From IMG/VR virus record IMGVR_UViG_3300025131_000077, positions 1 to 47,091 of that record: a DNA stretch of 47,091 nucleotides; one strand, given 5' to 3'. Shown here piece by piece: positions 11,831 to 47,089 of this stretch. The notes under the pieces are model-generated. The model was not told where the DNA came from. It searched no databases and saw only the letters and a program-made list of their open reading frames with translations. A program made the translations under genes and the position numbers. The DNA comes from a virus. Every line of letters begins with the position of its first letter. The first letter of the stretch is position 1.

Positions 11831-14800
11831 ATGGGTTTCGCTGGACAAGTATTTGCAGCAAGGGTAGCTATTGGTTTAGCTATGCCTTCAAAACAAGCCA
11901 TGGGCCAAGCAAGTCAAATAATTGGCGCAGGAGCCGCAGCTCTATATAAAAAGATGAATAGCATGCAGGTCCAGCAAGCTAAAAAACGTACTAAACAAAC
12001 TGAAACTGAATTAAATGCTGTACGAAGTAAGATAGAAAACCATCGTAAAAATTTACAATCCCAGATGTTACAGGGGCAAAAGAAGTTTGAAGCCTCTATG
12101 AACAAAACTAATATGGGAGCTAAAATGGTGGCTGGTAAAACACAAAAAGCTTTTGTAAAAACACAAAAAGCATTGGGTACAGCAAAGACCACTAAACAAT
12201 TAGAGAATACTTTTAAAGCAGGAAAAAGAGCTTTTCAAGATTTTGCTGCTCATGTTAAACAGCGTTCTCCAGACCTTTTTATTAAATTATTCGACCATGA
12301 AGATTTAGAAAAGGCTCAAAGAGAAATTGGTAAATTTGACATGGGTAAATTGTCAGATGTAATGTGGGACACTGGAAAAGAAGGAGACAAGAATAGAAAA
12401 GAACTTCAGCGTATAGCTAAATTAGAATTAGATAATGCTACGCGTAGAAGAGATTATGGAATGGAAGAAATCAAGATGATGAGAACCAAGACTGAATGGT
12501 TACTCAAAACAGGTCAAATAGGTGCTGATGCTCATAGAGAATCTATAGCACTTCTTGACGCAGAACAACAAGGATTTAAAGATAATGTAGATGCAGCTCG
12601 TAATTTCTATACCTTTGTCGATGAAGGTATAAGGGATTATAATGAAGCATATAGTGCATGGGATGCTGAATATCAGGATATGGTCAGAGATGAGAAAGAC
12701 CTTACTGATTTAATGACGAGAGCTATAAAAGGAGAAGAAGAGGCTATCAAAGAGTTAGCACGGGGTGCAGAACATGCAGCACGTAAGACAGCTCAATTTG
12801 CTGAAGCTTTGAAAAACAACTTCCAAAATGCTCTGAGAGAATCTATATCTGCTCTCACTGCTATGTTTTATAAATTACAACAAAATACTCAAGAATTAGT
12901 AGAATTTGAAAGAGAATTAATGAATGCAAACTCTGTGTTCAATCTAACTCGTAAGGAATTATATGAAACAAGTAACGTTATTACTCAATTTGGTCAATCT
13001 TTTGGAATGGAGATGCAAAATGGAGCGGAAGGTCTTTATCAATTAGCATCGGCTGGTTTAAGCGCTAATGATGCTGCTAAGGTATTACCTGAAACACTCA
13101 AATTATCTATGGCTGTTCAGGGAGACCACAATACTATAGCTAAATTAACTACACAGACTATAATGGGTTTCGGAATGGAAATGGAACAAGCAGCTGAAAT
13201 AACAGATAAGTTCGCACATGTTATTCAGAAATCTTTGATTGAATACGAAGATTTATCCAGTGCTGTTAAATTCGCAATGCCTTTCTTTACTGCTACAGGT
13301 CAATCTGTTGACCAATTACTGGGTGCGTTGGAAATATTAACCAACCGTGCACTCGAAGCAGGTATCGCAGGTCGTGGTCTAAGGCAAGCTCTCGCTGAGT
13401 TTGCTGAGCACGCTGACGATAATACGGCTGCATTCGCTAGAATGGGTCTAGAAATTAGAGAAGCAGATGGCTCTATGAAGGATTTGACTGTAATAGCTAA
13501 GGAATATTCAGATATCATTGGGCCCGAAGCCGCAAGCAATACTGAACTGTTAACGGGCCTTATTGAAGACTTGAATGTTCGTGGTGCTACTGCTTTCGTT
13601 CACTTAGTGCAAAATGCAGATGAATTTGGTGAAGCTGTTAAAAATGTAGAAAATGCTGGTGGAGAGTTAGATGAGATGGTTAGGATTCAGAATGAATCTA
13701 TGTCTGCTCAAATTCAAATTTTGAAAAATAATGTTCAGATGCTCTTCTTTATGTCAGATGGAGTAGAAAGAGCTAATGGAGCTATGAATGAGTTTCATAG
13801 TGCTATTATTGATGGAATAACAGGGCTTCAAGACCTATTAGTAGAGGGAGAAGAAGGTAATAAACAATTAACAGAGTTTGGTAAAACTATACAACAAGTG
13901 GCAGTTGAAGCAGTAAGAGAATTAACAGTGCTTATACAGGATGGTATAAAATTCCTTGCTGAATTCTCTGGAGAAGGTAAAACAGCGATTGGCGTACTCA
14001 AAGCTTATTTGTTACCAATTAAAGTATTAATGAAAGCTATTGACTGGTTAGGGCCTAGAGCTACTAGTCTAGTAATACAATTTACAATGTTAAATAAATT
14101 ATTCAGTCTTACAGCTGGTTTAAGGGCTACTGTAGCTGGAATGATGGCTTTATATACATGGGTTTTTGCAGCTGAAAAGGCTACTGAAGAGGAAACCGAA
14201 GCTGTTGTAAATAATATTACTGCTAAAACAACAGAAGTTGGGGTAAATCAAGCTCTTGCTGCTTCAGAATTAGAATTAGCAGGGGCTCGTGGTGTAGCAA
14301 CTCAAGCAGCCACGGCAGAAGCAGGAGCAGAAGCAGCTGGAGAGAGTTTACCTGTAGTTGGAGGAGCACCACCCGGAATGGGAGGTGGTGGTGTTACACC
14401 ATCCATGGAAAAAACTAAGGGTGGATATAAATCAGTAGATAAGACTGGTAAAAAACGATATCACTATGGTAAAAATGCTAAAAAGAATGCTGCTAAGTAT
14501 GGTAAGGCTGGTAAAGCCAAAGATGCAGCTAAAATTGGTAAAACGGCAGGTTCAGGTGCGGCTAAAGTAGGAAAAATGGCAATGGCCTTACAAACTTTAT
14601 ATACCGGTATTGGTTATGTAGTAGCAGCTCTAGGTACTATGGTAGGAGCTATTGTTGCTGTTGTTGTAATTATTGTGGCCGCTATTGCTGCTTTTGTTGC
14701 ATGGGGAGTTCAACTTATGGGTATATTTGAACCTATAAAACAAATGTTTGTAGACTTTAAAAATGGGGTCGTAGAGCTTTGGAATAATTTGGGTGGACTT

Positions 14801-15889
14801 TTTGATGGTTTGATTATGTGGATGGTAGAAATAGAATTAATAACTGCACAACAAGGAAAAAGCTTAGGATATTTAGGTTATTTGTGGGGTGGTTTTGTTC
14901 AATATGCTAAAGACGCTATGTCTGATTTAGGTTTCTCAATAAAGAGGGTAGGAATGGATATAGCCATGAGACTTGGTGGAGTTTTCGGTTATATGTTATA
15001 TCTTGTATCAGATGTATTTAAAAATATCTATGATGTAGTTATGTATTATATAGGTAATAGTGTAATAATTGATGCTATTGTTAGTGGATTCTCAAGCTTA
15101 TGGACTAAATTATTTGACTCGGAAGAGGGATGGTTAAGATGGATGACTCTTACGTGGTGGGAGGACAGATTTGCGGAATTAGTAACTTGGTGGAATGGTG
15201 GTCAGGTTGTGTTAGATACCTTCGCATCAGCTCTAGATTTTGGTACTGAAATGTTTGGTAGTATTCTCACTTTCATCGAGGAACTTCCTGATAAACTTTT
15301 AGGTATTGCAGCAAGTTTAAAAAATGCAGTGAGTTTAACTGCTATATTTGGTATAGATGCATTTAAAACAGCTTGGAATGCTATGGCTACCATGATGTCC
15401 AATATTGAGATGGAAATTGATATAGGTGGTTTTAGTTTTGAAGCACCTGATTGGGTTCCCGGAATAGGAGGCGAAGGCTGGGGATGGGCTGGTTACAATG
15501 AAAAAATTACTTTAGGTTCATGGCCTACATTTGATATAGCAGCAGTTGCTGCTGCTGCTGATACCACCACTGGAACAGACCCTCTAGTAAATAGGGCCGG
15601 CCGTCAGTATGGTGGTTATGTTACTGCTATGGCAAATGGTGGATATGGAAGCATGGGAGGCTCATATTTAGTTGGAGAACAGGGTCCAGAACTCTTTACA
15701 CCTAACCAATCAGGGCAAATTATAAATAATAGTAGGACCAATAATATATTAAGGAACCAGCTCGATGCTGGTGTTCACGCTAATCAAGCTAATGCAGGAG
15801 CCAGCTTAAATGTTCAAAATTTACATGTTGGTAAATTCACAGCAGGGCGAAGTAAGTTCAAAGTAGATACCTTCGCAGGAGTAGCATAA
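11831..15889 (+). CDS. Tail tape measure protein (1352 aa)
   Basis: The long helical protein that sets tail length and is ejected with the genome. The first ~450 residues are mainly coiled-coil, rich in K, Q, E and A. The middle carries TMP-type segments such as ALRESISALTAMFYKLQQNT, ALEILTNRALEAGIAGRGLR and QALAEFAEHADDNTAAFARM. A strongly hydrophobic span at ~931-965 (VGAIVAVVVIIVAAIAAFVAW) could insert into the host membrane. The C-terminus has the common GEQGPELFTPNQSGQIINN signature. The ribosome binding site AAGGAG precedes the ATG. No peptidase or lysozyme domain was recognised. The stop overlaps the next ATG (TAATGG). Confidence 0.9.
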   Translation: MGFAGQVFAARVAIGLAMPSKQAMGQASQIIGAGAAALYKKMNSMQVQQAKKRTKQTETELNAVRSKIENHRKNLQSQMLQGQKKFEASMNKTNMGAKMVAGKTQKAFVKTQKALGTAKTTKQLENTFKAGKRAFQDFAAHVKQRSPDLFIKLFDHEDLEKAQREIGKFDMGKLSDVMWDTGKEGDKNRKELQRIAKLELDNATRRRDYGMEEIKMMRTKTEWLLKTGQIGADAHRESIALLDAEQQGFKDNVDAARNFYTFVDEGIRDYNEAYSAWDAEYQDMVRDEKDLTDLMTRAIKGEEEAIKELARGAEHAARKTAQFAEALKNNFQNALRESISALTAMFYKLQQNTQELVEFERELMNANSVFNLTRKELYETSNVITQFGQSFGMEMQNGAEGLYQLASAGLSANDAAKVLPETLKLSMAVQGDHNTIAKLTTQTIMGFGMEMEQAAEITDKFAHVIQKSLIEYEDLSSAVKFAMPFFTATGQSVDQLLGALEILTNRALEAGIAGRGLRQALAEFAEHADDNTAAFARMGLEIREADGSMKDLTVIAKEYSDIIGPEAASNTELLTGLIEDLNVRGATAFVHLVQNADEFGEAVKNVENAGGELDEMVRIQNESMSAQIQILKNNVQMLFFMSDGVERANGAMNEFHSAIIDGITGLQDLLVEGEEGNKQLTEFGKTIQQVAVEAVRELTVLIQDGIKFLAEFSGEGKTAIGVLKAYLLPIKVLMKAIDWLGPRATSLVIQFTMLNKLFSLTAGLRATVAGMMALYTWVFAAEKATEEETEAVVNNITAKTTEVGVNQALAASELELAGARGVATQAATAEAGAEAAGESLPVVGGAPPGMGGGGVTPSMEKTKGGYKSVDKTGKKRYHYGKNAKKNAAKYGKAGKAKDAAKIGKTAGSGAAKVGKMAMALQTLYTGIGYVVAALGTMVGAIVAVVVIIVAAIAAFVAWGVQLMGIFEPIKQMFVDFKNGVVELWNNLGGLFDGLIMWMVEIELITAQQGKSLGYLGYLWGGFVQYAKDAMSDLGFSIKRVGMDIAMRLGGVFGYMLYLVSDVFKNIYDVVMYYIGNSVIIDAIVSGFSSLWTKLFDSEEGWLRWMTLTWWEDRFAELVTWWNGGQVVLDTFASALDFGTEMFGSILTFIEELPDKLLGIAASLKNAVSLTAIFGIDAFKTAWNAMATMMSNIEMEIDIGGFSFEAPDWVPGIGGEGWGWAGYNEKITLGSWPTFDIAAVAAAADTTTGTDPLVNRAGRQYGGYVTAMANGGYGSMGGSYLVGEQGPELFTPNQSGQIINNSRTNNILRNQLDAGVHANQANAGASLNVQNLHVGKFTAGRSKFKVDTFAGVA

Positions 15890-26505: not shown

Positions 26506-28371
26506 TTAAATTTCACATTTGTCGCCAGCACAAGCATACTCACCTTTACCTTGAGTATTGTCCTGTTGCTCATAATGCGACAGTTGTGTATAGTTAATTA
26601 GGGGTAGGGTCTTTATAAGCCTTTCGTAGGAATGTACATCAATTTCTTCATATGGAGCGAGCTCATATTTACCACCATCATAAGGTAAAAATGATACCCC
26701 ATTAATAATATCCCAGTTCTGGTAAACCCAATTACCTACTTCAAACCATTCATCTTCCCTGACATACACAGTCATACTGGCGTTATGTTCACACCAGTTA
26801 TGTTGTAAGTTTTTATAATGTCTTAGTTGGTCTAAAGCTGTTACATCCTTTCTGGTTATACAACCTTCAGGAGATTTAACTGGGAATTCTAAAACCCATG
26901 TAGATGCATTCGTCTTTGTCTGTCCTACTTCAGGATTACATTTTATTCCTGCATCTTTTAATAAAGCAAATAATGGGTCACGGGCTGCAATTCTATAACG
27001 ACGAATATAGTATTGAGAATAGCGAGGATGTACTCCTGATGCAGAGTCCACAAGTTGACTGACAGTTCCTGATGGCTTCACACAAGTGGTCGCTGCTGGC
27101 ATTTTAGTTCCTAGTATTCCTGATGCCTTGCGAGAAATGCGCAAAACACGGCTTTTAAGGGCCTTTAACGCGTCCGAAGTGAGAACCGAGGGGTTATCCA
27201 TCTGACCGGTCAAACTAACGCCTAGAAGCGCTTCTACGTCACAATTCTTTTTCCACTCTTTTCTGAGGTAAGGAAAATAGGTGAACGAACTTTGTATAAC
27301 ACCAAGCCACGTAGCTGTCTCCACTTTGTCCAACAATGAATCTAAGTCATCATCTTCTCTAACTACTACTTCTGAAAGGTTACAGAATTCCATATCCCGC
27401 AACATTATTTCTCCACAGGGATTAGTTCCCTGAATAAGAGGAGCGTAACGTCTGGAAGGAGCTTTGTTTTGTGCGGCTTCTAAATTAAATATACCACGCT
27501 CTCCTGTTCCAGACAAAGCTAAAGCTGCCCATTCTTTTAAAAATTGAGCAGCGGAAGGCTTCTCCCTGAATATAGCACTGTTATTAGCCATAGCTCTTTT
27601 AATAGGGAAAGGCCATTCCTTTGCATGACGCATTTCTTTATCATCAAGGTCACTCAAAGAGATTTGTGAGCTGCGTCTAACTCCACCCACCACTACAATC
27701 TCAGCAATTTGATTACAGATATCGTGAGCCTCCAAAGTTGTGAGCTTTCGACCTTGCGCATTGTGCATGGTTTCACGAATGAAGTCATGCAGTTTAATTA
27801 GTGGTGATGGACCAGATGCTCTACCACCCATTGTTTTAAGGCGAGCTCCTTCTAATCTTATTCCACTATAATCAAAATAAATGTTTTGTCCATCATATAG
27901 ACTGTTCATAAGTGTTTTAACTGAATCTGCCCAACCATCTTTAGAATCATCTATAACTATTTTAGCTAAAGCTCTACCAGATTTTATTGCTGGTACTTCA
28001 GGTAATTTTTCCACTTCTTCTTTTTCTACAGAAAAACCAAAACCAGTTCCACACATGAGTATATAAAGACATTCAGCGAATGCCTCCACAGAGTTTATCT
28101 TAGCAAAGGAGCAGTTATAAATACAGGTATTGTCAGCCTTAGCTGCTGGACCTGCTGCCCATAAAAATCTCATTGAGGGCATTACGGAAAACTCTGTCAT
28201 ATATTTTCTTATCTTGTTAATTGTCTTTTCTGGAATCTCAGGTCTTTCTGAAATTACAAAACTAATAAATCTTTCTATTGTCTCAGGCCAATCTTCACGC
28301 CTGTCTTCTTCTTCAATCCATCGAGAATATGTTCTCTTATATATAAATTCTGCTACGTTATTTTTAAACAT
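26506..28371 (-). CDS. nrdJ: Class II (adenosylcobalamin-dependent) ribonucleotide reductase, 621 aa
   Basis: Makes deoxyribonucleotides for viral DNA synthesis, independent of oxygen. The monomeric RTPR-type pattern is clear. KRTYSRW is near the N-terminus. CIYNCSF (~84-90) carries the first redox Cys. NPCGEIMLRDMEFC has the thiyl Cys (~318) and Glu, with the partner Cys 11 residues on (~329). PSGTVSQLVDSASGVHPRYS is the phosphate loop. A C-terminal Cys pair C614/C619 (CAGDKCEI) re-reduces the active site. It is about 120 residues shorter than the Lactobacillus enzyme (739 aa), with a shorter region between the first and second cysteines, so allosteric control may be reduced. The ribosome binding site is AAAGGAG. 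It depends on host or environmental B12. Confidence 0.92.
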   Translation of the reverse strand: MFKNNVAEFIYKRTYSRWIEEEDRREDWPETIERFISFVISERPEIPEKTINKIRKYMTEFSVMPSMRFLWAAGPAAKADNTCIYNCSFAKINSVEAFAECLYILMCGTGFGFSVEKEEVEKLPEVPAIKSGRALAKIVIDDSKDGWADSVKTLMNSLYDGQNIYFDYSGIRLEGARLKTMGGRASGPSPLIKLHDFIRETMHNAQGRKLTTLEAHDICNQIAEIVVVGGVRRSSQISLSDLDDKEMRHAKEWPFPIKRAMANNSAIFREKPSAAQFLKEWAALALSGTGERGIFNLEAAQNKAPSRRYAPLIQGTNPCGEIMLRDMEFCNLSEVVVREDDDLDSLLDKVETATWLGVIQSSFTYFPYLRKEWKKNCDVEALLGVSLTGQMDNPSVLTSDALKALKSRVLRISRKASGILGTKMPAATTCVKPSGTVSQLVDSASGVHPRYSQYYIRRYRIAARDPLFALLKDAGIKCNPEVGQTKTNASTWVLEFPVKSPEGCITRKDVTALDQLRHYKNLQHNWCEHNASMTVYVREDEWFEVGNWVYQNWDIINGVSFLPYDGGKYELAPYEEIDVHSYERLIKTLPLINYTQLSHYEQQDNTQGKGEYACAGDKCEI

Positions 28372-29489: not shown

Positions 29490-30572
29490 TTAGGTGCAAA
29501 GGCATTTATCTCCTTTGCATATTCCTAATTGTATTAACTTATCAACTGAATACCTATTTATAGCTTTCGCTCGAATTGACTCTATATGACGCCCTGCGGT
29601 ATTTAAATCGTCTGTATACCAGCCCCAATCTCCAGCGGCCTCATTATATATACTCTTGAATACAAAAGATATATCTCTATCAGACCACCCTCCATTCACC
29701 AATTCGAAAGCGATGACATTGTTCTCCTCATGGGAGCTATGTCCACGCTTTATATTATTCTCTATTAGCTCTACTACGCATCTTCTAGGGGGCTTAATAT
29801 ATTCATTGCCCAATAGAGACTTACTAGAGAGTTCAATAGAGCCTGTTGCTTCTTCTATCTTATTCAATAAATAAGCTATACTATTAGAAACAGTATGTTT
29901 TATTTCATACATGTCACACACAAATTCCACAAAGTTTCTCTGTGCTTTTGTGCTTTGCTCAGGAGGAATAGTTTTTTCATTCTCTTCCTGTGCCATAGCG
30001 TATAGTTCTTCTATACCCATCTTTAATATTTCTTCTACACTAAATTGAGTACACCATACGCCTGTCCCTTCACCAGTAATCTTAGAGATATACTCAGTGT
30101 TGGGTATACGTCTCATACAAGAGACACTATTATTTATACAAATATCATCTAACGTCTTTAAGGAATATTTAACCTTAAGGTGTTTCAAATACTCTCGTAT
30201 AGCTTGTCGCTTTACGTGTGCCGGTAAGTCCACTGGCGAATGAAAGTCTATATTCATTTGAAAGCCCTTTCCCCCTGTAAGATATATCCTCGGGGTAATC
30301 TTTAGTGGTTTGCAGAACCGGCGTATAAATCTTCTCACATCCATTAAACATTTTTTAACATCCTTATTATCATCAAAATCAAACCATACAGTGTTTAACA
30401 AAGCTGTTTCGTAGTTAGTTCTACCTTCAGCTTTTAATTTCTCATCATCAAATACATAGACACTCGCATAACAATTCTTCTTACCGTTGTATTGTTCTAC
30501 GAATTTCTCTATTTCTTCGACGTCTTTACACTTTCCAATTCTGGCTGGGATTCCGAATTCTCTGTAATACAT
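29490..30572 (-). CDS. Archaeal-type primase, fused PriS- and PriL-like domains (360 aa)
   Basis: Makes primers for viral replication. Residues ~62-160 hold archaeo-eukaryotic primase motifs: WFDFDD (metal Asp 65/67), LTGGKGFQMNIDF (motif II, with Gln in the place of the usual His) and SCMRRIPNT (motif III). The C-terminal part (~260-360) resembles the PriL Fe-S domain: PPRRCVVELIENNIKRG, NGGWSDRDISFVF and a final CKGDKCLC. Four cysteines (265, 352, 357, 359) fit a 4Fe-4S cluster. The ATG at 30572 (MYYREFGIPARIG) is preferred over a TTG at 30602: GAGG lies 10 bases upstream and the family begins near 'YYRE'. It overlaps the 101-aa gene by 64 bases. A promoter for the downstream operon lies inside its 3' end. 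Confidence 0.85.
   Translation of the reverse strand: MYYREFGIPARIGKCKDVEEIEKFVEQYNGKKNCYASVYVFDDEKLKAEGRTNYETALLNTVWFDFDDNKDVKKCLMDVRRFIRRFCKPLKITPRIYLTGGKGFQMNIDFHSPVDLPAHVKRQAIREYLKHLKVKYSLKTLDDICINNSVSCMRRIPNTEYISKITGEGTGVWCTQFSVEEILKMGIEELYAMAQEENEKTIPPEQSTKAQRNFVEFVCDMYEIKHTVSNSIAYLLNKIEEATGSIELSSKSLLGNEYIKPPRRCVVELIENNIKRGHSSHEENNVIAFELVNGGWSDRDISFVFKSIYNEAAGDWGWYTDDLNTAGRHIESIRAKAINRYSVDKLIQLGICKGDKCLCT
29554..29572 (-). promoter_or_regulatory. BRE+TATA promoter inside the end of the primase gene
   Basis: On the minus strand GCGAAAGCTATAAATAG is almost identical to the promoter core at 41391-41410. It would start transcripts near 29530, about 50 bases before the 123-aa gene. Being within primase codons, it is constrained by both functions. 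Confidence 0.55.
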
Positions 30573-30814
30573 TCCTTTAAAACCTCTATCTCCTGACACC
30601 AATCTGTTGGTATCGTTACTATATCCACACCATCAACATCATTCCAATGATTCACTAATATAATTGCTTTATCATCTTTAGCTATCATTTCACCTACACT
30701 CTCTGCTATAGAGAGATTCTCTACAGGTTCCATTATGTTTACAGCATGAGTTTTAACTTGCTGGGCGGCATCATTCCACCTAATCTTTACTATGGGTCCA
30801 TTCATTCCTAACAT
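30509..30814 (-). CDS. Hypothetical protein, 101 aa
   Basis: Unrecognised. Starts MLGMNGPIVKIRWNDAAQQV, with an SH3-like 'V.IRW.DA' opening seen in small phage proteins, then AIILVNHWNDVDGVDIVTIP and an acidic/Ser tail. It overlaps the HAD-like gene upstream (35 bases) and the primase start downstream (64 bases), so all three are coupled. Confidence 0.55.
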   Translation of the reverse strand: MLGMNGPIVKIRWNDAAQQVKTHAVNIMEPVENLSIAESVGEMIAKDDKAIILVNHWNDVDGVDIVTIPTDWCQEIEVLKECITENSESQPELESVKTSKK

Positions 30815-33332: not shown

Positions 33333-35552
33333 TTATATCCATTCCATTAAACTCTTTTGTTTTTTATCTACTACTGTAATAGGGGGCTTCTTACGAACCC
33401 ACTCATCTAATTTGAACTTTTGTAGGAGAGTAGTGATAGTATCCCAGTAGTAACGAATATCTATCTCATTTATATCTTTAATAGTATCTGTAAGTTTATA
33501 TCCTTCATTAGTCTTACAATAGTAGTAAGTGGTTCCTTGTGAAGGAGTCATACCTATTTGTTCTCCTTGTTCAATTAATTTCATTATTAAGTCAGTCTCA
33601 GATTTGTAATCCTTTTTCTCCCTACCTTGAGACTTTCTCATAATAAAATCATCTAAGGTATAAGCTTCTAAAGAATACAGGTCATCAATAAACTTAGTAT
33701 TAACAACGTTATTCATTCGACCATCTATTAATTTCTCTAACACTGTTAAATAAAATTTAGAACGTGATGTAGCTTTGAAGGTGCTTCCATGTTTTGTTAT
33801 ACTTCCATCTTCATTTCTTAAAGCATAGTTTCCTACTTGTAACCAAACACCTTCTTTAAAGTAATCTTTATCCATCGATATATGGTCCGGCTCAGCATCA
33901 GGAATAACATGTTTTAGTAATCTCCTTAATCTGTTTGTCAACCATAACTCATCAACATCCACATTAGTATTAATCCCATCTGTGTGTACATATACCACAG
34001 CATCTTCTCCATATCGGCTACGGATAATATTAACGCCGGAGAGGAGTAACCACCTCGCAATCGCTGTGATAGTAACACCCACGCCCATATCACCATAGCT
34101 GATATAAGGATTAGCATTTGCCCCATAGAAAGTATTCACCATTATTTTTAGAGCATCTGATTTGCTCTTATCTTCTTTCGTAGACCCAAGCTTATAAGGC
34201 TTTCGCATTTCCTTAAATTCATGACACATTTTATATAGACAGCTCTTCCTAGACTGGTCTATTTTAATCATTAGTCTTTTACCCACCTTGTTATCAGGCA
34301 CGTAAAGTATGTCATTTTTGAATTCTACCTCATCACTATACTCATCATAACCTACAATTTGTGTAGTATCTGGCCCTAAATTTAAGGCCATAGCTATAGA
34401 AGGATAGTAAGAACTAAAGTCTACCTTTACATTCTTCTGATGGAATCCCGGTCTATATAATTCAATATGAGCTGCTTGATAGTTACCTTTATCAGCTCTA
34501 TATATCTGAGGGTGACGCTCTTTATTTCTATCAAGCGTTACTATGCCTTGCTCAAACAAGCTCCTACCTTGTAAAATTTTGGTAATATAACTTGATGGAG
34601 CATTGACATATGTTGCCAGAGGAACGCATAAAGTCTCAGCGATATACTGGATTTGTGGGAAGTAGTGATTATATAAATACATTGTAGCATCTACATCACT
34701 TAATACATAATCATGTATCTCTTCCATAGTATAGTCTAATAAATCCTTATCGGCAAAATCAAGCTCGATAGGGTCTAGACCAAAGTTCCTAGACACGCTC
34801 TTCAGGCCACGGGGTATGCCTGATAGGGAGTAATCGAGTCGTGTCCAGCGCAGTAAATCGAGGACTATGCGCCCTCCAGCGTTCATCTTAAGTTCCTTTT
34901 GGTTCTCAGGGGTCTCCCAACCCCACTCACTATTATCTCTGTTAAGTATCTTTTTATACCCTTTAAGTCCATGGAAACTAGCTCTATGTAATATTTGAGG
35001 TATATCATACCCAACGAGGTTATAACCTACAATAACATCAGGGTCATAATCATGAATATATTCAGCAAATTTAAGTATAACATCTCTATCATCTTCACCA
35101 TCCCATAATAATACTTCTCTCTCACCACTACTTGTAACGATACCAATAGCTACCACTGGATATTTTTCTCCAAAGGGAAAGGAACCATCAGGTGAATGAG
35201 TCTCAATATCAAATACCAATGTCTTTAAATCATCTGTATTAGGAAACTGACTAAAGAAGTCAGGATGTTCTATCAATAACCTTTCTAGTATAGCCTCCCT
35301 ACCACCTTCAAATAAAGCAGTAGGAGGTAATATATCTCTACTTGGTAAGTAATTATGTTTAGATAACTTAACTGTTTTATCTGAAGCAATTACTTTATAC
35401 TCATCTCCTCCTTCACCGGGAAGATAATAATATGGTCTGTAAGGAGATTTTACAGCTTCGGTTTCACTATTCCTATATATCTTAACCTTTAAACTACTAT
35501 CTCTTAAATCAATAGTTCTTTGATTAATCGTCGCTATCAGTGGAACTTTCAT
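33333..35552 (-). CDS. polB: Family B DNA polymerase with 3'-5' exonuclease (739 aa)
   Basis: Replicative polymerase of the virus. Exonuclease motifs: FDIETHSPDG (~113), YNLVGYDIPQI (~175), YVLSDVDATMYL (~280). Polymerase motifs: A, VDFSSYYPSIAMAL (~376); B, KIMVNTFYGANANP (~467); C, YVHTDGINTN (~522). Motif C carries His in place of the first Asp of the usual DTD, while the essential second Asp is kept. The last residues QKSLMEWI (732-739) resemble a PCNA-interacting box, suggesting use of the host sliding clamp. It overlaps the 103-aa gene by 29 bases and is directly followed by the HNH-like gene. About 739 residues is short for cellular PolB but normal for viruses. Confidence 0.92.
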   Translation of the reverse strand: MKVPLIATINQRTIDLRDSSLKVKIYRNSETEAVKSPYRPYYYLPGEGGDEYKVIASDKTVKLSKHNYLPSRDILPPTALFEGGREAILERLLIEHPDFFSQFPNTDDLKTLVFDIETHSPDGSFPFGEKYPVVAIGIVTSSGEREVLLWDGEDDRDVILKFAEYIHDYDPDVIVGYNLVGYDIPQILHRASFHGLKGYKKILNRDNSEWGWETPENQKELKMNAGGRIVLDLLRWTRLDYSLSGIPRGLKSVSRNFGLDPIELDFADKDLLDYTMEEIHDYVLSDVDATMYLYNHYFPQIQYIAETLCVPLATYVNAPSSYITKILQGRSLFEQGIVTLDRNKERHPQIYRADKGNYQAAHIELYRPGFHQKNVKVDFSSYYPSIAMALNLGPDTTQIVGYDEYSDEVEFKNDILYVPDNKVGKRLMIKIDQSRKSCLYKMCHEFKEMRKPYKLGSTKEDKSKSDALKIMVNTFYGANANPYISYGDMGVGVTITAIARWLLLSGVNIIRSRYGEDAVVYVHTDGINTNVDVDELWLTNRLRRLLKHVIPDAEPDHISMDKDYFKEGVWLQVGNYALRNEDGSITKHGSTFKATSRSKFYLTVLEKLIDGRMNNVVNTKFIDDLYSLEAYTLDDFIMRKSQGREKKDYKSETDLIMKLIEQGEQIGMTPSQGTTYYYCKTNEGYKLTDTIKDINEIDIRYYWDTITTLLQKFKLDEWVRKKPPITVVDKKQKSLMEWI

Positions 35553-35835
35553 CCTTAACCTCCTGTGTTATATTCTTTGCTCTCCCTTCAGTAGGGTCTA
35601 ACATTATCTCTACATCATCTCCTTCAACTTCCCACATTTCTATAAGAGAAATAGCGTCACTTATCGCATTACTCCAAGCCATGTGTATTCTATAGACATC
35701 ATCATCTGCACCTATAATTTCAGGTTTATATGCTTCAGCCATATCCATATGATACTGAGCACCTCTTCTTAATAACTCCATCCATCCTTGACGTTGTTCA
35801 TCCGTAGATACTGTTAGTTTTTTGATTTCAACCAT
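35524..35835 (-). CDS. Hypothetical protein, 103 aa
   Basis: Unrecognised; acidic and helical: QRQGWMELLRRGAQYHMDMA and NAISDAISLIEMWEVEGDDV, with an acidic tail ESSTDSDD. It overlaps the MazG-like gene upstream by 8 bases and PolB downstream by 29 bases. Co-expression with replication enzymes suggests an accessory role, which is inference. Confidence 0.55.
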   Translation of the reverse strand: MVEIKKLTVSTDEQRQGWMELLRRGAQYHMDMAEAYKPEIIGADDDVYRIHMAWSNAISDAISLIEMWEVEGDDVEIMLDPTEGRAKNITQEVKDESSTDSDD

Positions 35836-36145
35836 TTCTATATGCTTCTTGTTGTTCAGGTGTCATTCTTTGAAATAGTTTATCTATATTGTTTAACATT
35901 AAATCTGATATCTTTATGTTATATACATCACATAGTCTCGTGAGATACCACAATACATCACCCATCTCATCTATTATTAAGTCAGTGTTATCTATTCTAT
36001 CTCTTATTTCTTTCTTAAAAGCTCCACCAACTTCTCCTGCTTCGTTCATTAAACCTATCATTAGGTATTCTTTTTCTCTACGCTTAGGATATTTAGCAGT
36101 TCTGCGTGTAAAATCCATATACGTTGCTTCTATTCCTTCTACCAT
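35828..36145 (-). CDS. MazG-like nucleotide pyrophosphohydrolase (105 aa)
   Basis: All-alpha NTP-PPase fold. ExxE (E35, E38 in NEAGEVGGAFKKE) and ExxD (E60, D63 in DEMGDVLWYLTRL) are the metal-binding residues, and YNIKISDLMLNNIDKL matches the last helix. It hydrolyses (d)NTPs or alarmone-like nucleotides to monophosphates. In viruses it is linked to nucleotide-pool control alongside ribonucleotide reductase. Its ATG overlaps the aIF1A stop by 7 bases. Confidence 0.8.
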   Translation of the reverse strand: MVEGIEATYMDFTRRTAKYPKRREKEYLMIGLMNEAGEVGGAFKKEIRDRIDNTDLIIDEMGDVLWYLTRLCDVYNIKISDLMLNNIDKLFQRMTPEQQEAYRNG

Positions 36146-36462
36146 ATATTCAACTCCTCAGGTATTATATCTCTTTTTATAACCCAATTCCTTTCAGTAG
36201 GTAAATACCTATATACTAAGTCAGCTTTACTATCTTCCTGTATAGGCCACGGCTGAATTATTATAAGGTCATTCATTCTTGTCCACATTCTTCGTTTAAG
36301 TTTACCACCAATACGAACCATGCGTGTTTTTCCATCTTCACATAATGCTTTCATTCGAGAACCACCTGACATTTCAATCACCACAGCGAACTGTTGGTTC
36401 CTTGTAGGTAGTTTAACCTTTCTTGTTGAAATGTTTTCTGATTGTTTCGTATTCTTTTTCAT
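36139..36462 (-). CDS. Archaeal translation initiation factor aIF1A-like protein (107 aa)
   Basis: The S1/OB-fold core (~25-85) reads FAVVIEMSGGSRMKALCEDG, KTRMVRIGGKLKRRMWTRMN and DLIIIQPWPIQEDSKADLVY. The cellular factor has the same order: 'GG.R..V.C.DG..R..RI.GK.K.R.WIR..D...V.PW....KAD...RY'. A basic N-terminal tail and a C-terminal helix flank the core. aIF1A binds the small-subunit A site during initiation. A viral copy could favour viral mRNAs or keep initiation going during infection. The ribosome binding site GGAGAT precedes the ATG, which lies 50 bases inside the ATPase gene. IF1-like or other OB proteins are less likely given the 'CEDG.TR..RI.GK' core. Confidence 0.85.
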   Translation of the reverse strand: MKKNTKQSENISTRKVKLPTRNQQFAVVIEMSGGSRMKALCEDGKTRMVRIGGKLKRRMWTRMNDLIIIQPWPIQEDSKADLVYRYLPTERNWVIKRDIIPEELNIW

Positions 36463-37894
36463 TATAATCTCCTTCTGCTTCCAATAAGAAAGCTTTATAT
36501 GTTTTTATTTCTGAGTCCCTTTTAGATTTAAAAATCTTAGGGTAGTCTGTTGACTCTACTTCTGTTGCCCTTTTTGTTCTCTTACCCAACCCAACGTTGT
36601 CGCCAGTAAACGGGTCAACAATTTCAATATCGCCACAAAAGCGGTCAATGTATTCCACAGCCACGGTAGGCCAGTTCTTTGCCATAAACTTTTCTGTTTC
36701 TCCAATTAAATCACTCCAATTTATTTTTGCTACTGGCTCTGTTATCAATGGACTTTTATAATAAAAGCGTTTACCTTTATCTTCATCCATCTCTAAGAAA
36801 CCAGTCATTACTAACGCACCTAATATAGGGTCCACTTTAGTAAAGGGTAGACCAGCAGCTTTAGCCGCCTTGCGAATTTCATTTGATGTCATTCTTACAG
36901 TGTCTCCATCTGCAAATCCAAACTTATCTAACCTTGTATCAGGAAACAGTTTTAATATATCTGTTCCATGACTAGGCATATGTAAACATTCAGATACAAA
37001 AGAGTTAAGGTATATCCTTAAGCCTAACCAATTATGTTTAGGTGTAACTATTCCATATCTCTTACCATCTTTCTCTACTGTTAACATTTCATCTGGATAG
37101 AATCGTGCTACTGCATTGATTAAGTTCAAAAGGTATTGAACCTTAGAACGTGAGACAGGGAAAACACTAGGAATTGCTTCGAATAAGAATGGTGCACAGG
37201 GATTCTTTAGCTCTAAAGCATCATCATCATCCCTCTGACATATCTGTTCTACGAAGTGTTTCCTCAAACCTTCTATCTCTTCATCAGTCATAGACGTAAG
37301 AAAGGATTTAGGTAGAGCCGCATCCATTAGTTTATGCTTGATTACCCTTTCAGTCTGTTTAACAGTAGGATTAGTGTGCATAATCATACACCGACGTTCA
37401 AGTTCTGCGTCGAAGTAAGATGCACCCTTTGTGTTTTCCACAGCCACACACATGAATACATATTTAGGGTTTAAGGTCTGTGATACTGTTTCCTTGATGG
37501 TTACGTCTGTTCTTTTTCTTTGTGCGGCTCTACCATCACCCCAAGTCTTTACCACTTCCATTACTGGTTCGGGTAATTTTTGGGCTTCCGGTATGGCAAC
37601 AAATCTAGCACGATTAATTTTGTCCATCTCATACCATACAGCAGTCTCAGATAAATGTTCCATCGTATGATAGAACTCATCAGGTAACAATCCAAAGATA
37701 GCATCCATGATGACAGTCTTACCTGTTCCACTATATGCTTTGATAACAAAGTTAGTATCCTCTAATAAATAAGATAGGATACTGGTCAAAGCAAGTTCAT
37801 CTTCTCCTAAGATAGGATTCAATGAACCATCTTTTTTCCTTACATTATGGAAATATCTTGTAACATCATATAGTTCATATTTCTTCATATCCAC
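36413..37894 (-). CDS. P-loop ATPase, probable replicative helicase or loader (493 aa)
   Basis: Walker A: AYSGTGKT (53-60) after VIK. Walker B-like: RFVAIPEAQKL (97-107). A later Arg-rich FDAELERRCMIMHTNP could supply an arginine finger. The C-terminal third contains a winged-helix-like segment (MTSNEIRKAAKAAGLPFTKV then LVMTGFLEMDE). The overall layout, ATPase then winged helix, resembles MCM/Cdc6-type or phage-plasmid helicases. It sits between the ssDNA-binding-like gene and primase/PolB genes. I cannot assign a named family, so the helicase role is inferred from domain layout and context. Overlaps neighbours by 10 and 50 bases. Confidence 0.6.
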   Translation of the reverse strand: MDMKKYELYDVTRYFHNVRKKDGSLNPILGEDELALTSILSYLLEDTNFVIKAYSGTGKTVIMDAIFGLLPDEFYHTMEHLSETAVWYEMDKINRARFVAIPEAQKLPEPVMEVVKTWGDGRAAQRKRTDVTIKETVSQTLNPKYVFMCVAVENTKGASYFDAELERRCMIMHTNPTVKQTERVIKHKLMDAALPKSFLTSMTDEEIEGLRKHFVEQICQRDDDDALELKNPCAPFLFEAIPSVFPVSRSKVQYLLNLINAVARFYPDEMLTVEKDGKRYGIVTPKHNWLGLRIYLNSFVSECLHMPSHGTDILKLFPDTRLDKFGFADGDTVRMTSNEIRKAAKAAGLPFTKVDPILGALVMTGFLEMDEDKGKRFYYKSPLITEPVAKINWSDLIGETEKFMAKNWPTVAVEYIDRFCGDIEIVDPFTGDNVGLGKRTKRATEVESTDYPKIFKSKRDSEIKTYKAFLLEAEGDYNEKEYETIRKHFNKKG

Positions 37895-38580
37895 TTCTCC
37901 CTTGCATTTCTCAGTGTGAGAACATTATTATCAACTAATTTAACTGCATAGGTTTTTAAATCTTTTTCATCTATACCACTAAAGTTATCCTTAAGTAGTA
38001 GAAATAAATCTATTAAAGATATAGGTTCACCCTCTTTATCTTTTAAGAATTCAACTATCTCTACTGGAACAACCCAATGATACTCTTGTTCTTCACTGTT
38101 CACAAGCGACGGTCTAAATTTTTCTTGAACAAAGGCATCCATATCAGTAGAATTAATATGATAACCATTAACAACTCTACCCGATGAGGTTTTAATCTTT
38201 GTTCTTTTTATTTCAAACACTATGTCCGTAGGGTTAACAGCTGTTTCAATTAGTTTAGAAAACGTCTTTTGAAAATGTGTATGGGTAGCAAGTGTTGCTG
38301 ATAGATATGAAACTTCTACGTCTCCTCCACCTTGATATTCAGAATTGTTATGATATAAACCATAAGTAAATTCATCTATCTTAGGCACTTTATTCTTACA
38401 GAATAGACAGTCTCCATCTCTAGCCCAACATTTAACTCTACGTCTCTGAGCTTGATTCCAATGTCTAACTCTATGAATGGGAGATATAAAAGCGAATTGG
38501 CATAGAGCCGTCATAGAGTCTTCTAACCAAACTCTCTGGCTCTTAGGCGATTGTATCCAGTCACTATAGGATTCACTCAA
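37885..38580 (-). CDS. Putative zinc-containing ssDNA-binding protein (231 aa)
   Basis: CWARDGDCLFCKNK (Cys 51, 58, 61) is followed by OB-fold-like strands TYGLYHNNSEYQGGGDVEVS and NPTDIVFEIKRTKIKTSSG. A zinc knuckle just before an OB-like core with a 'DP/NPTD..I.I.R' strand is the pattern of many viral SSBs. It lies next to the ATPase and upstream of the primase and polymerase. The C-terminal ~80 residues may be a winged-helix or partner-binding domain. Alternative: a virus-specific transcription factor. Confidence 0.5.
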   Translation of the reverse strand: MSESYSDWIQSPKSQRVWLEDSMTALCQFAFISPIHRVRHWNQAQRRRVKCWARDGDCLFCKNKVPKIDEFTYGLYHNNSEYQGGGDVEVSYLSATLATHTHFQKTFSKLIETAVNPTDIVFEIKRTKIKTSSGRVVNGYHINSTDMDAFVQEKFRPSLVNSEEQEYHWVVPVEIVEFLKDKEGEPISLIDLFLLLKDNFSGIDEKDLKTYAVKLVDNNVLTLRNAREKWI

Positions 38581-38968
38581 TGCTAATGGTTTTCCCTTTG
38601 GACTTCTCTTCCTTAGAGATTTTCATATCCAATACGCCATTGTTGAGAGTAGCTACTACATTCTCAGGGTCAAGTGTCTGTTCAAATCTTTTGTAGACAT
38701 TATAATCCCTTACATCTGTTACAGCCTTTATACTTACTGAGTGTGGTTCTACTACTATTTCTATATCCTTCTTTTCAATTCCGGGCATATCAATAGTAAC
38801 AGCTATCTCTCCATTTCTATCTTCCCAATCTCCCATAACATCTTGGTCACGGGCGATAGGGTTATCTTTCCAATTAGATAGTCCTTGCCACTTGGGATAT
38901 AGACTCATCAATTTCATCCATTCGTCTAATATCTCATCGACTCCCATTACAAAGTCTTTGCGAGGCAT
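38573..38968 (-). CDS. Small heat-shock protein (Hsp20/alpha-crystallin, 131 aa)
   Basis: The alpha-crystallin domain occupies about 48-131: EIAVTIDMPGIEKKDIEIVV, VYKRFEQTLDPENVVATLNN and the hallmark NGVLDMKI. It ends in an I-x-I-type tail (ISIE). It holds unfolding proteins, without ATP, during stress or assembly. Hsp20 copies are known in marine tailed viruses, where they may protect replication or capsid assembly. It overlaps the SSB-like gene by 8 bases. Confidence 0.88.
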   Translation of the reverse strand: MPRKDFVMGVDEILDEWMKLMSLYPKWQGLSNWKDNPIARDQDVMGDWEDRNGEIAVTIDMPGIEKKDIEIVVEPHSVSIKAVTDVRDYNVYKRFEQTLDPENVVATLNNGVLDMKISKEEKSKGKTISIE

Positions 38969-41628: not shown

Positions 41629-41904
41629 TTATCTAAACCACAAATAATATGCGATTACTCCTAAACATATTAGATTTCCTATACTATATAATATTATCTC
41701 TTTCCAATTAAAATCTTTCTTATTGTATGTTGGACCTTTCATTACCTTACGTTGAACTGTTTGAACATTCTTTACTTGGTAATGTGGTATAGCGTTCCAA
41801 CACTCATCACATAGGTATGCTCTTAGGTGGGGTGCTTCACTCGTATAGTGTGTGCGACATCTATTACAGTTATGCCACATTACTTTATAGTATGTTGGTT
41901 TCAC
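41629..41904 (-). CDS. Zinc-ribbon protein with C-terminal membrane span, 91 aa
   Basis: HNCNRCRTHY and YLCDECWNA form a zinc ribbon, followed by a polar linker and a hydrophobic span IILYSIGNLICLGVIAYYLW. The longer start is a GTG with GAGGTG upstream; the ATG at 41880 (MWHNCNRC) is an alternative 4 bases after the phytoene synthase stop. A membrane-anchored zinc ribbon facing the cytoplasm is expected. Confidence 0.6.
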   Translation of the reverse strand: MKPTYYKVMWHNCNRCRTHYTSEAPHLRAYLCDECWNAIPHYQVKNVQTVQRKVMKGPTYNKKDFNWKEIILYSIGNLICLGVIAYYLWFR

Positions 41905-42487
41905 GTGCCACCTCTAAGTATGATTGGTTGGCTTGTAGTATAGGGCCACGTAAGTCTTCAGGTATGAAGTGTAGTCCTTCTACGCCTATCTGTAAATCTT
42001 CCATAAACAATTTAATATATAAAGTAAAGTCATCAGTAATATAGTGGTATCCATTAGCTATATCTTCTTCATAGTCTCTAACAAAGTTTATTATTTGATA
42101 TGCTCTACCTAAAGCCCTTGCATGTCTCTCAGCTCGTGGGTCACAACCTAATATAGATGCCATCATTACACCTACTGACTCAGCTGAACCTTTACAATAC
42201 TCAAGCATAGACTTCACAGTATGTTCTTTCTTAACTAAATCTGTATACATCGCTACATGGAAATCTGATAACCATTCACCCTTGAACTGATACTTATCAC
42301 TAACTTCATAGAATTGTTCTATTACTTCCCTCCATTGTTTAAAATCTTTAAGTTCAGCACCTTCTACCATCTCGTCACATACTCTTAAGTAAGCATATAA
42401 TTTATATATATCTTCTTTTATCTCATCGGGCCATGCATCCATACACTCAAAGAATGTAGTGCTATATCTCTTCATTATCTCTTTCAT
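41885..42487 (-). CDS. Phytoene/squalene synthase-like enzyme (200 aa)
   Basis: Head-to-head prenyl transferase fold. Landmarks: RYSTTFFECM, YAYLRVCDEMVEGAEL (first Asp-rich motif, D38...E42), YCKGSAESVGVMMASILG, and GRAYQIINFVRDYEEDIANG (second motif D138-D142). It joins two C15 or C20 prenyl diphosphates to squalene or phytoene. The length is about 70-100 residues below cellular enzymes, mainly at the C-terminus and between motifs, so activity is likely but unproven. The first motif ends in Glu rather than Asp. The ATG lies one base after the preceding zinc-ribbon stop (TAA-A-ATG), placing it in a viral operon. Which product is made cannot be told by eye. Confidence 0.85.
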   Translation of the reverse strand: MKEIMKRYSTTFFECMDAWPDEIKEDIYKLYAYLRVCDEMVEGAELKDFKQWREVIEQFYEVSDKYQFKGEWLSDFHVAMYTDLVKKEHTVKSMLEYCKGSAESVGVMMASILGCDPRAERHARALGRAYQIINFVRDYEEDIANGYHYITDDFTLYIKLFMEDLQIGVEGLHFIPEDLRGPILQANQSYLEVARETNIL

Positions 42488-45052: not shown

Positions 45053-45158
45053 CCTCCACCTGTCTCTCTACCCATCTATCTTGATATCTTAAGGGTAGTT
45101 GCATATGTATTATCTCGCATATTTCATAGATTCTATCTTTTAGTTGTTCTTCATTCAT
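45024..45158 (-). CDS. Small helical protein, 44 aa
   Basis: Reads MNEEQLKDRIYEICEIIHMQ and LPLRYQDRWVERQVEDGLFK. The ATG overlaps the VWA stop (ATGA). Function unknown. Confidence 0.5.
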   Translation of the reverse strand: MNEEQLKDRIYEICEIIHMQLPLRYQDRWVERQVEDGLFKKYSE

Positions 45159-47089
45159 AGTTTCATCACTCTTTTCATCACTTTACTTAACTTGTTTGGT
45201 ATATCCTTAGTGTCACTAATATGCATGTAGTTATTAAACATCTTATCCATATAGTAGTCAGTAGCACCACCAAACCCTATCTGTATGATACTCCATCCTT
45301 TACTTTCTAACTCTCGAACTATACCTTTAACGTGCCTACGTGCCCCGTCACCGCCATATCTATGTGCGGCTGGTTGTCCATCAGATAGAACTATCATTAG
45401 TTTATTAGACATAGGTTGGTCACTTTCTTTAGATACTTTGTCAGCACAGGACCATATAGCATTACCATCTCTATTTTCAAATCGAGCTTTCATACCACCC
45501 ATAGCCATTGGCCTATCTTTCATTGATGGTCCCCAATATTGTGTCATATTAGTAGAACCTTTATCACTATGCCAATCATCATATCCATCAGCAGTATGTC
45601 CATATACCCATAGGTTGAGCTTAGGGTTATCAGCTAAAGCTTCTTTGATAGCGATAGCGGATTGCCTTGCATGAGTCATACGCCAACCACTATTCATACT
45701 ACCCGATTCATCTACGAGTATACATATATCTAAAGGTTTATCTTCTTTACTAAAGTCACACTTAAATAGTTCACGTGAACCCATAGGTATACGATGTAAT
45801 ACTCTTTTATCGAGCTTACCTCTCTTTTGATTCCTTATGGTATACTTCTGTGTGTTACCATATAGATTAATCTTCTTCTTTAAAGAGTTAATCACGGGCT
45901 TCATCTGTTTAACTTCAGTTTTATATACTCCCTTTTCATGTTCGTTAGGCATAGCAGTCCTCCATGTAACTTTAGTTTGTTTAGGATATAATACTTTATC
46001 CTTACCTAAAGTAGTCTCATGATAATCACTATCTTCTAACTCTTTGATAGCGTCAGCTAATGCTTTATCTAACTCAGATTCTAATTCTTTAGTATAGTCA
46101 GCCATTCCTTCTATACTATCCATATGACCATCATCATACATAGCCCTTTGTAGAGGACTACCTTTCTTCATCATATCTCTAACTAAGTCCTTCTTCATTT
46201 GTTCACGGACTTTATCCATCTCATCTTTAGAAAGCATATCACCCAATCTATCTTCTATCTCTTTCATAGCACTTTCGAGTTTATCTTTCATAGCCTCTTC
46301 ATCATCAGGTGCTAACTCTTCACATAGAGCTTTCATATACTGAAATATAGAACTAAACGCTTTATATGTAGAGTCTCTATCATCAAGACCATGTTGTAAT
46401 GCTTTAGCAAAATATCTTATATGCTTAGCATGACGCTTCCTTCTATCTTTATCAATAGAGGCTGGGTATCTTACAAATGCTAACAATGTATTGATAACAT
46501 CTAAGAACTCATCTTTATGTGGTTTTGATATAAGGTCTTTATTCTTCTCAAAGAAATGTTCTTTTACCTTATCTATATAACTAACAAAACCTGCACAGTC
46601 TTTAGATAACTGCTTTTCTATATACTCATCTTCTATTATGTTTACGATATTATGTAATAGTTTCTGTTCAGGCATAGTAAGATGATGCTCTAACTGATAC
46701 TCTTTTTCCCAATCCTTACAGGGTTGAGTATGAATAAGATGTAACTTTTCATGTATAGACAATCCTGCACATATATCTAAGTTATCATCACTATCCTTAA
46801 TAAGACTACCATCTATAACAATACGCCCATTGGCTATATTGGAATAGTTCCTACCATTCTCGTAAGCAAAGTCTAAAGTATGTTTTACTGTTGGGTCTAC
46901 AACTTTACATAGAGAATCTAAATGTCTCTTATGTCTAAGCATACGACCAGCATCAGTAGAATGACCGGTAGACCAGCTACCACCCCACATTGAAGTCATA
47001 GGACTCATGCGGTCAGTTATACCACTAACACCACGTTGCCACCATGATTGTCCACTACCCCACGTATATGCTCCACCTCTATTCCACAT
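45155..47089 (-). CDS. CobT-like VWA-domain protein (644 aa, start at window edge)
   Basis: A von Willebrand A domain occupies the last ~200 residues: LDICILVDESGSM with the metal-binding DxSxS (~459), then IVLSDGQPAAHRYG (~566). The upstream part is helical and charged, with a metallopeptidase-like IHEKLHLIHTQPC stretch, as in CobT and other VWA proteins that partner MoxR/CobS-type AAA ATPases. Such pairs remodel or metallate proteins, and viral copies are known in marine tailed viruses. A partner ATPase is not obvious in this window; it may lie just upstream. The ATG at 47089 is 2 bases from the edge, so the true start may lie further out. Confidence 0.75.
   Translation of the reverse strand: MWNRGGAYTWGSGQSWWQRGVSGITDRMSPMTSMWGGSWSTGHSTDAGRMLRHKRHLDSLCKVVDPTVKHTLDFAYENGRNYSNIANGRIVIDGSLIKDSDDNLDICAGLSIHEKLHLIHTQPCKDWEKEYQLEHHLTMPEQKLLHNIVNIIEDEYIEKQLSKDCAGFVSYIDKVKEHFFEKNKDLISKPHKDEFLDVINTLLAFVRYPASIDKDRRKRHAKHIRYFAKALQHGLDDRDSTYKAFSSIFQYMKALCEELAPDDEEAMKDKLESAMKEIEDRLGDMLSKDEMDKVREQMKKDLVRDMMKKGSPLQRAMYDDGHMDSIEGMADYTKELESELDKALADAIKELEDSDYHETTLGKDKVLYPKQTKVTWRTAMPNEHEKGVYKTEVKQMKPVINSLKKKINLYGNTQKYTIRNQKRGKLDKRVLHRIPMGSRELFKCDFSKEDKPLDICILVDESGSMNSGWRMTHARQSAIAIKEALADNPKLNLWVYGHTADGYDDWHSDKGSTNMTQYWGPSMKDRPMAMGGMKARFENRDGNAIWSCADKVSKESDQPMSNKLMIVLSDGQPAAHRYGGDGARRHVKGIVRELESKGWSIIQIGFGGATDYYMDKMFNNYMHISDTKDIPNKLSKVMKRVMKL

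Follow-up and report, generated by a model that had tools for sequence, protein, structure and literature searches.

An aIF1A-type translation initiation factor encoded by tailed viruses of probable Poseidoniia hosts

Introduction

The archaeal translation initiation factor aIF1A occupies the A site and, together with aIF1, boosts the binding of aIF2 and the initiator tRNA (PMC7005279; PMC3828320). In Haloferax volcanii the factor is essential, and its two copies are interchangeable (PMC3828320). Genes related to translation have been described in several groups of viruses. Giant viruses (Klosneuvirus, Indivirus, Catovirus and LCMAC202) encode an IF1A of the eukaryotic type, eIF1A, which is also listed for the Loki's Castle NCLDV (PMC6401483). 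Huge phages carry bacterial IF1 and IF3 (PMC7162821), and four haloarchaeal viruses of the Hafunaviridae encode the ribosomal protein L21e (PMC8651126). Tailed viruses of Poseidoniia are represented by the magroviruses and other Poseidoniales viruses (Magrovirales, Adrikavirales); in the magroviruses, which have a family B DNA polymerase (PolB), the block of replication genes runs opposite to that of the virion genes. We know of no described tailed virus of Marine Group III, and the takeover of translation initiation by archaeal viruses is, to our knowledge, hardly described.

The sequence analysed in this work, referred to as the window, is the whole 47,091 nt of IMG/VR record IMGVR_UViG_3300025131_000077 (G000). 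Its main features are presented in Table 1.

Table 1. Features of the window, with nucleotide positions; secondary structure is given in residues of the viral aIF1A
Feature	Position	Strand	Remarks
Protein with collagen-like repeats	198-5303	plus	1701 aa
Tail tape-measure protein	11831-15889	plus	Evidence of a tailed virus
B12-dependent ribonucleotide reductase	26506-28371	minus	
Primase-like protein	29490-30602	minus	
Family B DNA polymerase (PolB)	33333-35552	minus	Constant neighbour of aIF1A
Conserved small protein	35524-35835	minus	Between MazG and PolB; no assigned function
MazG-like pyrophosphohydrolase	35828-36145	minus	Begins 7 nt inside the aIF1A end
aIF1A	36139-36462	minus	107 aa, ATG at 36462; profile matches and AlphaFold model
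aIF1A secondary structure	strands 24-31, 36-41, 46-50, 66-71, 79-85; C-terminal helix 88-96		AlphaFold model
AAA-type ATPase	36413-37894	minus	Walker A SGTGKT (by eye); phrog_12057; common to haloarchaeal tailed viruses
Shine-Dalgarno AAGGAG	36469-36474	minus	6 nt before the aIF1A ATG, within the 3' end of the AAA gene
Conserved protein	37885-38580	minus	Upstream in the aIF1A gene cluster; no assigned function
Hsp20 small heat-shock protein	38573-38968	minus	Profile matches
Phytoene/squalene synthase-like protein	41885-42487	minus	200 aa
VWA/CobT-like protein	45155-47089	minus	644 aa

Identity and predicted structure of the viral aIF1A

The ORF located between MazG and the AAA ATPase encodes a genuine aIF1A. 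Its product matches the Pfam profile PF01176 (eIF-1a) with the domain covered end to end (E 6.1e-17, 61.5 bits, cut-off 30.2), as well as the NCBIfam model NF003084, 'translation initiation factor IF-1A' (E 2.3e-30, 104.5 bits, cut-off 91). Scores below the cut-offs of narrower NCBIfam models, e.g. 87.5 against 102.9 for TIGR00523, are the behaviour expected of a divergent member. In a phmmer search of the PDB, the protein matched the aIF1A of P. abyssi (4.2e-27) and of M. jannaschii (2.1e-21) plus many eIF1A, and S1-only or cold-shock OB proteins were absent from the matches. The AlphaFold model (pLDDT 84) presents a five-strand OB barrel followed by a C-terminal helix, and its best solved match in Foldseek is P. 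abyssi aIF1A (4mno, E 1.6e-12, 1.4 A rmsd). Chance is ruled out for this observation.

All 25 aligned viral homologs match the eIF-1a profile, and the decoding-site tryptophan W60 shows no variation across these 25 proteins. Conservation of at least 90% was found at 21 positions in 72 cellular aIF1A, 13 of which are equally conserved in 29 viral sequences. On the other hand, several near-fixed cellular positions are altered in the viruses, namely P52 (to G), Q90 (to E), L94 and, in deep viruses, P71 (to K), while E30, A39 and R91 are viral-specific residues. Because of these changes, the function or specificity of the viral factor may be altered.

Viral nature of the contig and its relatives

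The genes of the window that bear on its viral nature comprise the tape measure, the B12-dependent ribonucleotide reductase, PolB, MazG and Hsp20. Among phage records, the sole relatives of its AAA ATPase are haloarchaeal tailed viruses. Scans of viral contigs revealed more than 35 further contigs that hold aIF1A in near-identical gene order, and of the 15 aIF1A-bearing relatives tested, 14 also have a large terminase on their contig. No terminase was recognised within the window, which may be partial. By the tape measure of the window and the terminases of its relatives, the group belongs to the Caudoviricetes. RNA families were not found in the window, and no other translation factor was recognised among its scanned ORFs.

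The original prediction had described the gene as a virus-encoded archaeal aIF1A, of a kind rarely carried by viruses of prokaryotes. Both parts are borne out: the profile search placed the protein in the IF-1A family and not with an unrelated S1/OB protein, and the gene lies among viral genes in an IMG/VR record. As for rarity, there was no aIF1A match in 50,697 phage records (INPHARED) and none in PHROGs, and the best matches in a viral structure library were the IF1A of giant viruses of eukaryotes.

Other genes of this group were also observed. The protein with many collagen-like repeats is possibly a virion fibre, and the VWA/CobT-like protein is conserved in relatives, where its gene opens the cluster. 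The ribonucleotide reductase has about 48% identity to marine and rhizobial phage enzymes. The primase-like protein was recognised by eye as archaeo-eukaryotic, with the motifs WFDFDD and YLTGGKGFQMNID in its L003 homolog, and gave no match in Pfam. One of the aIF1A-bearing virus contigs, L034 (NZMJ01000097.1), is misbinned in a public Maricaulis MAG.

Gene order, selection and losses

The order AAA-aIF1A-(MazG)-PolB is kept across the aIF1A loci, and aIF1A lies immediately 3' of AAA in 32 of the 38 AAA loci with sufficient downstream sequence. In the window, the aIF1A gene overlaps AAA by 50 nt at its start and MazG by 7 nt at its end, with the small gene and PolB next, which suggests one polycistronic message and coupled translation of aIF1A with the replication genes. 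The same AAGGAG motif precedes the aIF1A start in most viral homologs, where it is also maintained by the coding constraint of the AAA gene.

The dN/dS ratio between viral aIF1A copies is about 0.05-0.2, a sign of purifying selection, so the protein is in use. In a midpoint-rooted tree of AAA and PolB, the deepest split carries aIF1A on both sides, so that the common ancestor of the sampled virus family probably already had the gene. The absences require two changes on this tree and are best read as two later losses. Six of the 38 AAA loci have no aIF1A at this place; among their contigs that were searched over the full length and proved to have no aIF1A at all, the two longest measure 55.8 and 33.8 kb. 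Since it was lost at least twice, the gene is not indispensable; the viral aIF1A is probably useful but dispensable.

A candidate deletion scar in L266, whose next gene starts with MKKISKKSKK and resembles the start of the L246 aIF1A, was set aside, since this run of codons is shared with the overlapping 3' end of AAA and proves nothing. The record IMGVR_UViG_3300037195_000659 (L262 and L268) presents two opposed AAA/PolB blocks, one with and one without aIF1A, and is probably a chimeric assembly.

Origin and likely host

In the aIF1A gene tree, inferred from a short alignment of 99 columns, the viruses form a clade (100/97) within archaeal aIF1A, sister to an MGIII-like group of Poseidoniia (94/89). 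The position among archaeal sequences stands, and the support for the MGIII-like group as exact sister is good but not decisive, the AU test failing to reject Thermococci (p 0.47) or MGII (p 0.19). The MGIII-like group is distinct from other Poseidoniia; its genomes measure about 0.7-1.4 Mb and are bimodal in GC content (34-42% and 59-67%), and by these traits we regard it as Marine Group III.

Other comparisons also point to this group. The viral aIF1A profile scores 91-98 bits in MGIII-like genomes vs 72-83 bits in other Poseidoniia. The motif PYKPKGEMFA is present in MGIII-like aIF1A and missing from the other aligned cellular sequences, and close forms of it occur in the deep-branch viruses L033, L243, L244, L245 and L274. 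Among the 18 Poseidoniia genomes matched by Hsp20, 17 are MGIII-like, and both the Hsp20 and the phytoene/squalene synthase of the virus have their best Poseidoniia matches in such genomes. The putative host genomes hold their own aIF1A, in single copy in nearly all. From these sequence comparisons, the viral gene was probably taken from an MGIII-like host before the known family members diverged, and we infer that the present hosts are probably Poseidoniia of the MGIII-like group.

The synthase (SQS_PSY, 2e-26) is an example of an isoprenoid gene carried by a virus of archaea; this type of gene is conserved in most relatives and relocated beside PolB in some. The window has no tRNA genes, and 18 related loci presented one tRNA-Glu (L033), whose similarity of 77% to MGII vs 71% to MGIII-like is not decisive for the host. 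In the divergent virus L246, the aIF1A groups with MGIII-like genes (97/89), although by AAA and PolB this virus is a member of the window family, which may represent a second acquisition at the same site or a long-branch effect.

Proposed function

We propose that the aIF1A of these tailed, marine Poseidoniia viruses, of MGIII-like origin, is probably a functional additional initiation factor in the infected cell. That a second copy can be productive follows from the interchangeable copies of H. volcanii. After its acquisition from an MGIII-like host, purifying selection would have retained the gene within the cluster of replication genes. We infer that its product would, like the cellular factor, occupy the A site on the host's 30S subunits, act alongside the host aIF1 and aIF2:GTP:Met-tRNAi, and supplement the host factor at the time when PolB and MazG are expressed. 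Initiation-competent 30S subunits would then stay available for viral mRNA while the host shuts down or limits its factor. These viruses would probably thus take a direct part in the translation start of the infected cell.

Leader types and Shine-Dalgarno use

Shine-Dalgarno (SD) sites were counted as GGAG, GAGG or AGGA located 4-16 nt upstream of a called gene's first ATG. With gene starts from simple ORF rules, the SD frequency was 51% in the window and 50% in 15 related loci, internal ATGs presenting about 5-12%. In cells it was 14% for low-GC MGIII-like genomes and 25% for MGII, and the halovirus HRTV-5 showed 21%. In tight operons, the virus presented 54% vs 24% in MGIII-like genomes, with 50% in MGII; where the upstream gene was more than 30 nt away, the values were 47% vs 11% (Fisher p 7e-18). 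Hybridisation energies agree with the motif counts. Relatives without aIF1A presented 39% by motif and 49% by hybridisation energy. The anti-SD CCUCC is intact at the end of the 16S rRNA in the MGIII-like genome G037 as well as in several MGII genomes. These ends came from an SSU rRNA search, which took the place of a search with a 13-mer of the 16S tail; the two MGIII-like matches of the latter that were checked proved not to be rRNA.

The original prediction had also suggested that the viral copy could divert initiation toward viral mRNAs, including leaderless ones. The comparison of viral and host leaders points the opposite way, as viral mRNAs look SD-led in putative hosts that are mostly not. 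The leaderless link fails with about half of the viral genes preceded by SD sites and with similar values in relatives without aIF1A. Since these relatives are about as SD-rich, the leader type is independent of aIF1A; SD use is a family trait and does not directly show that aIF1A is there to serve it.

The same counts bear on a selective role, in which the divergent viral aIF1A, its altered residues shifting start selection on the host 30S subunit, would favour SD-led viral mRNAs over the mostly SD-less mRNAs of the host. We consider this role unlikely, although it agrees with the SD excess of viral genes, both overall and at the wider spacing, with the hybridisation energies and with the intact anti-SD of G037. 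The viral-specific residues, together with P52G, also fit it, as does the low SD frequency of HRTV-5, which comes from a collection without aIF1A matches. Against it stand the similar SD richness of aIF1A-less relatives, the simple rules by which starts were called, and the tight-operon genes of MGII, 50% of which are likewise SD-led. It is quite improbable that these are the first known archaeal viruses whose own factor switches an MGIII host from mostly non-SD to SD-led initiation.

Other readings

The viral protein could act in host shut-off, as a dominant-negative decoy that sits in the 30S A site and blocks host initiation. Changes at positions that are near-fixed in cellular factors would suit such a decoy, but viral translation would be blocked too, most of the conserved positions are retained, and the gene has conserved replication genes around it, outside any region of variable small genes; we regard this role as very unlikely. 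Equally slim are the chances that the OB fold was repurposed for genome replication, as a binder of RNA or single-stranded DNA. The constant neighbours, replication and nucleotide genes, and the place between the AAA ATPase and PolB are in line with such a use; however, in sequence and predicted structure the protein is nearest to aIF1A bound to the ribosome, and it retains the C-terminal helix and the invariant W60.

That the contig, wholly or around aIF1A, is a piece of archaeal chromosome is barely credible: binning errors do occur, as the relative in a bacterial MAG illustrates, but this origin is contradicted by the repeated gene order and the terminases on the contigs of relatives, and the window has a tape measure and an AAA gene that gave no match in the 146 Poseidoniia genomes searched.

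The conserved viral aIF1A, together with its cellular kin and the viruses that lost it, offers a natural system for studying what a virus gains from an additional initiation factor. This system could address bias in archaeal start selection between SD-led and other mRNAs. In addition, the gene helps to indicate the likely hosts, Poseidoniia and probably the MGIII-like group.

Comparison with known systems

The viral protein shares with cellular aIF1A (P. abyssi 4mno and 5jb3; Poseidoniia of MGII and the MGIII-like group) the OB fold with C-terminal helix, the 107 aa length and W60. Its identity to the P. abyssi factor is 46%, with most conserved residues common to both. It differs from the cellular factors by P52G, Q90E, E30, A39 and R91, and from those of Poseidoniia by one additional residue in the loop after PW..Q.

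The magroviruses and the other Poseidoniales viruses are tailed viruses of Poseidoniia, as those of the present group probably are. The profiles and literature examined mention no initiation factor for Magrovirales or Adrikavirales. The L21e of Hafunaviridae is likewise a translation gene in archaeal tailed viruses, but it encodes a large-subunit ribosomal protein and not an initiation factor.

Giant viruses share a virus-encoded IF1A with the window group, but they have eukaryotic hosts, large genomes and many translation genes, whereas the group described here is tailed, with contigs of up to 81 kb. Huge phages are also prokaryotic viruses with an initiation factor; theirs is of bacterial type and lies in very large genomes, while the factor reported here is archaeal and conserved in one group. 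A literature search, in which the Poseidoniales-virus literature was covered incompletely and may hold an earlier mention, returned no report of aIF1A in a prokaryotic virus. Virus-encoded initiation factors are thus already known, and an archaeal aIF1A as a conserved gene of prokaryotic viruses appears to be new.
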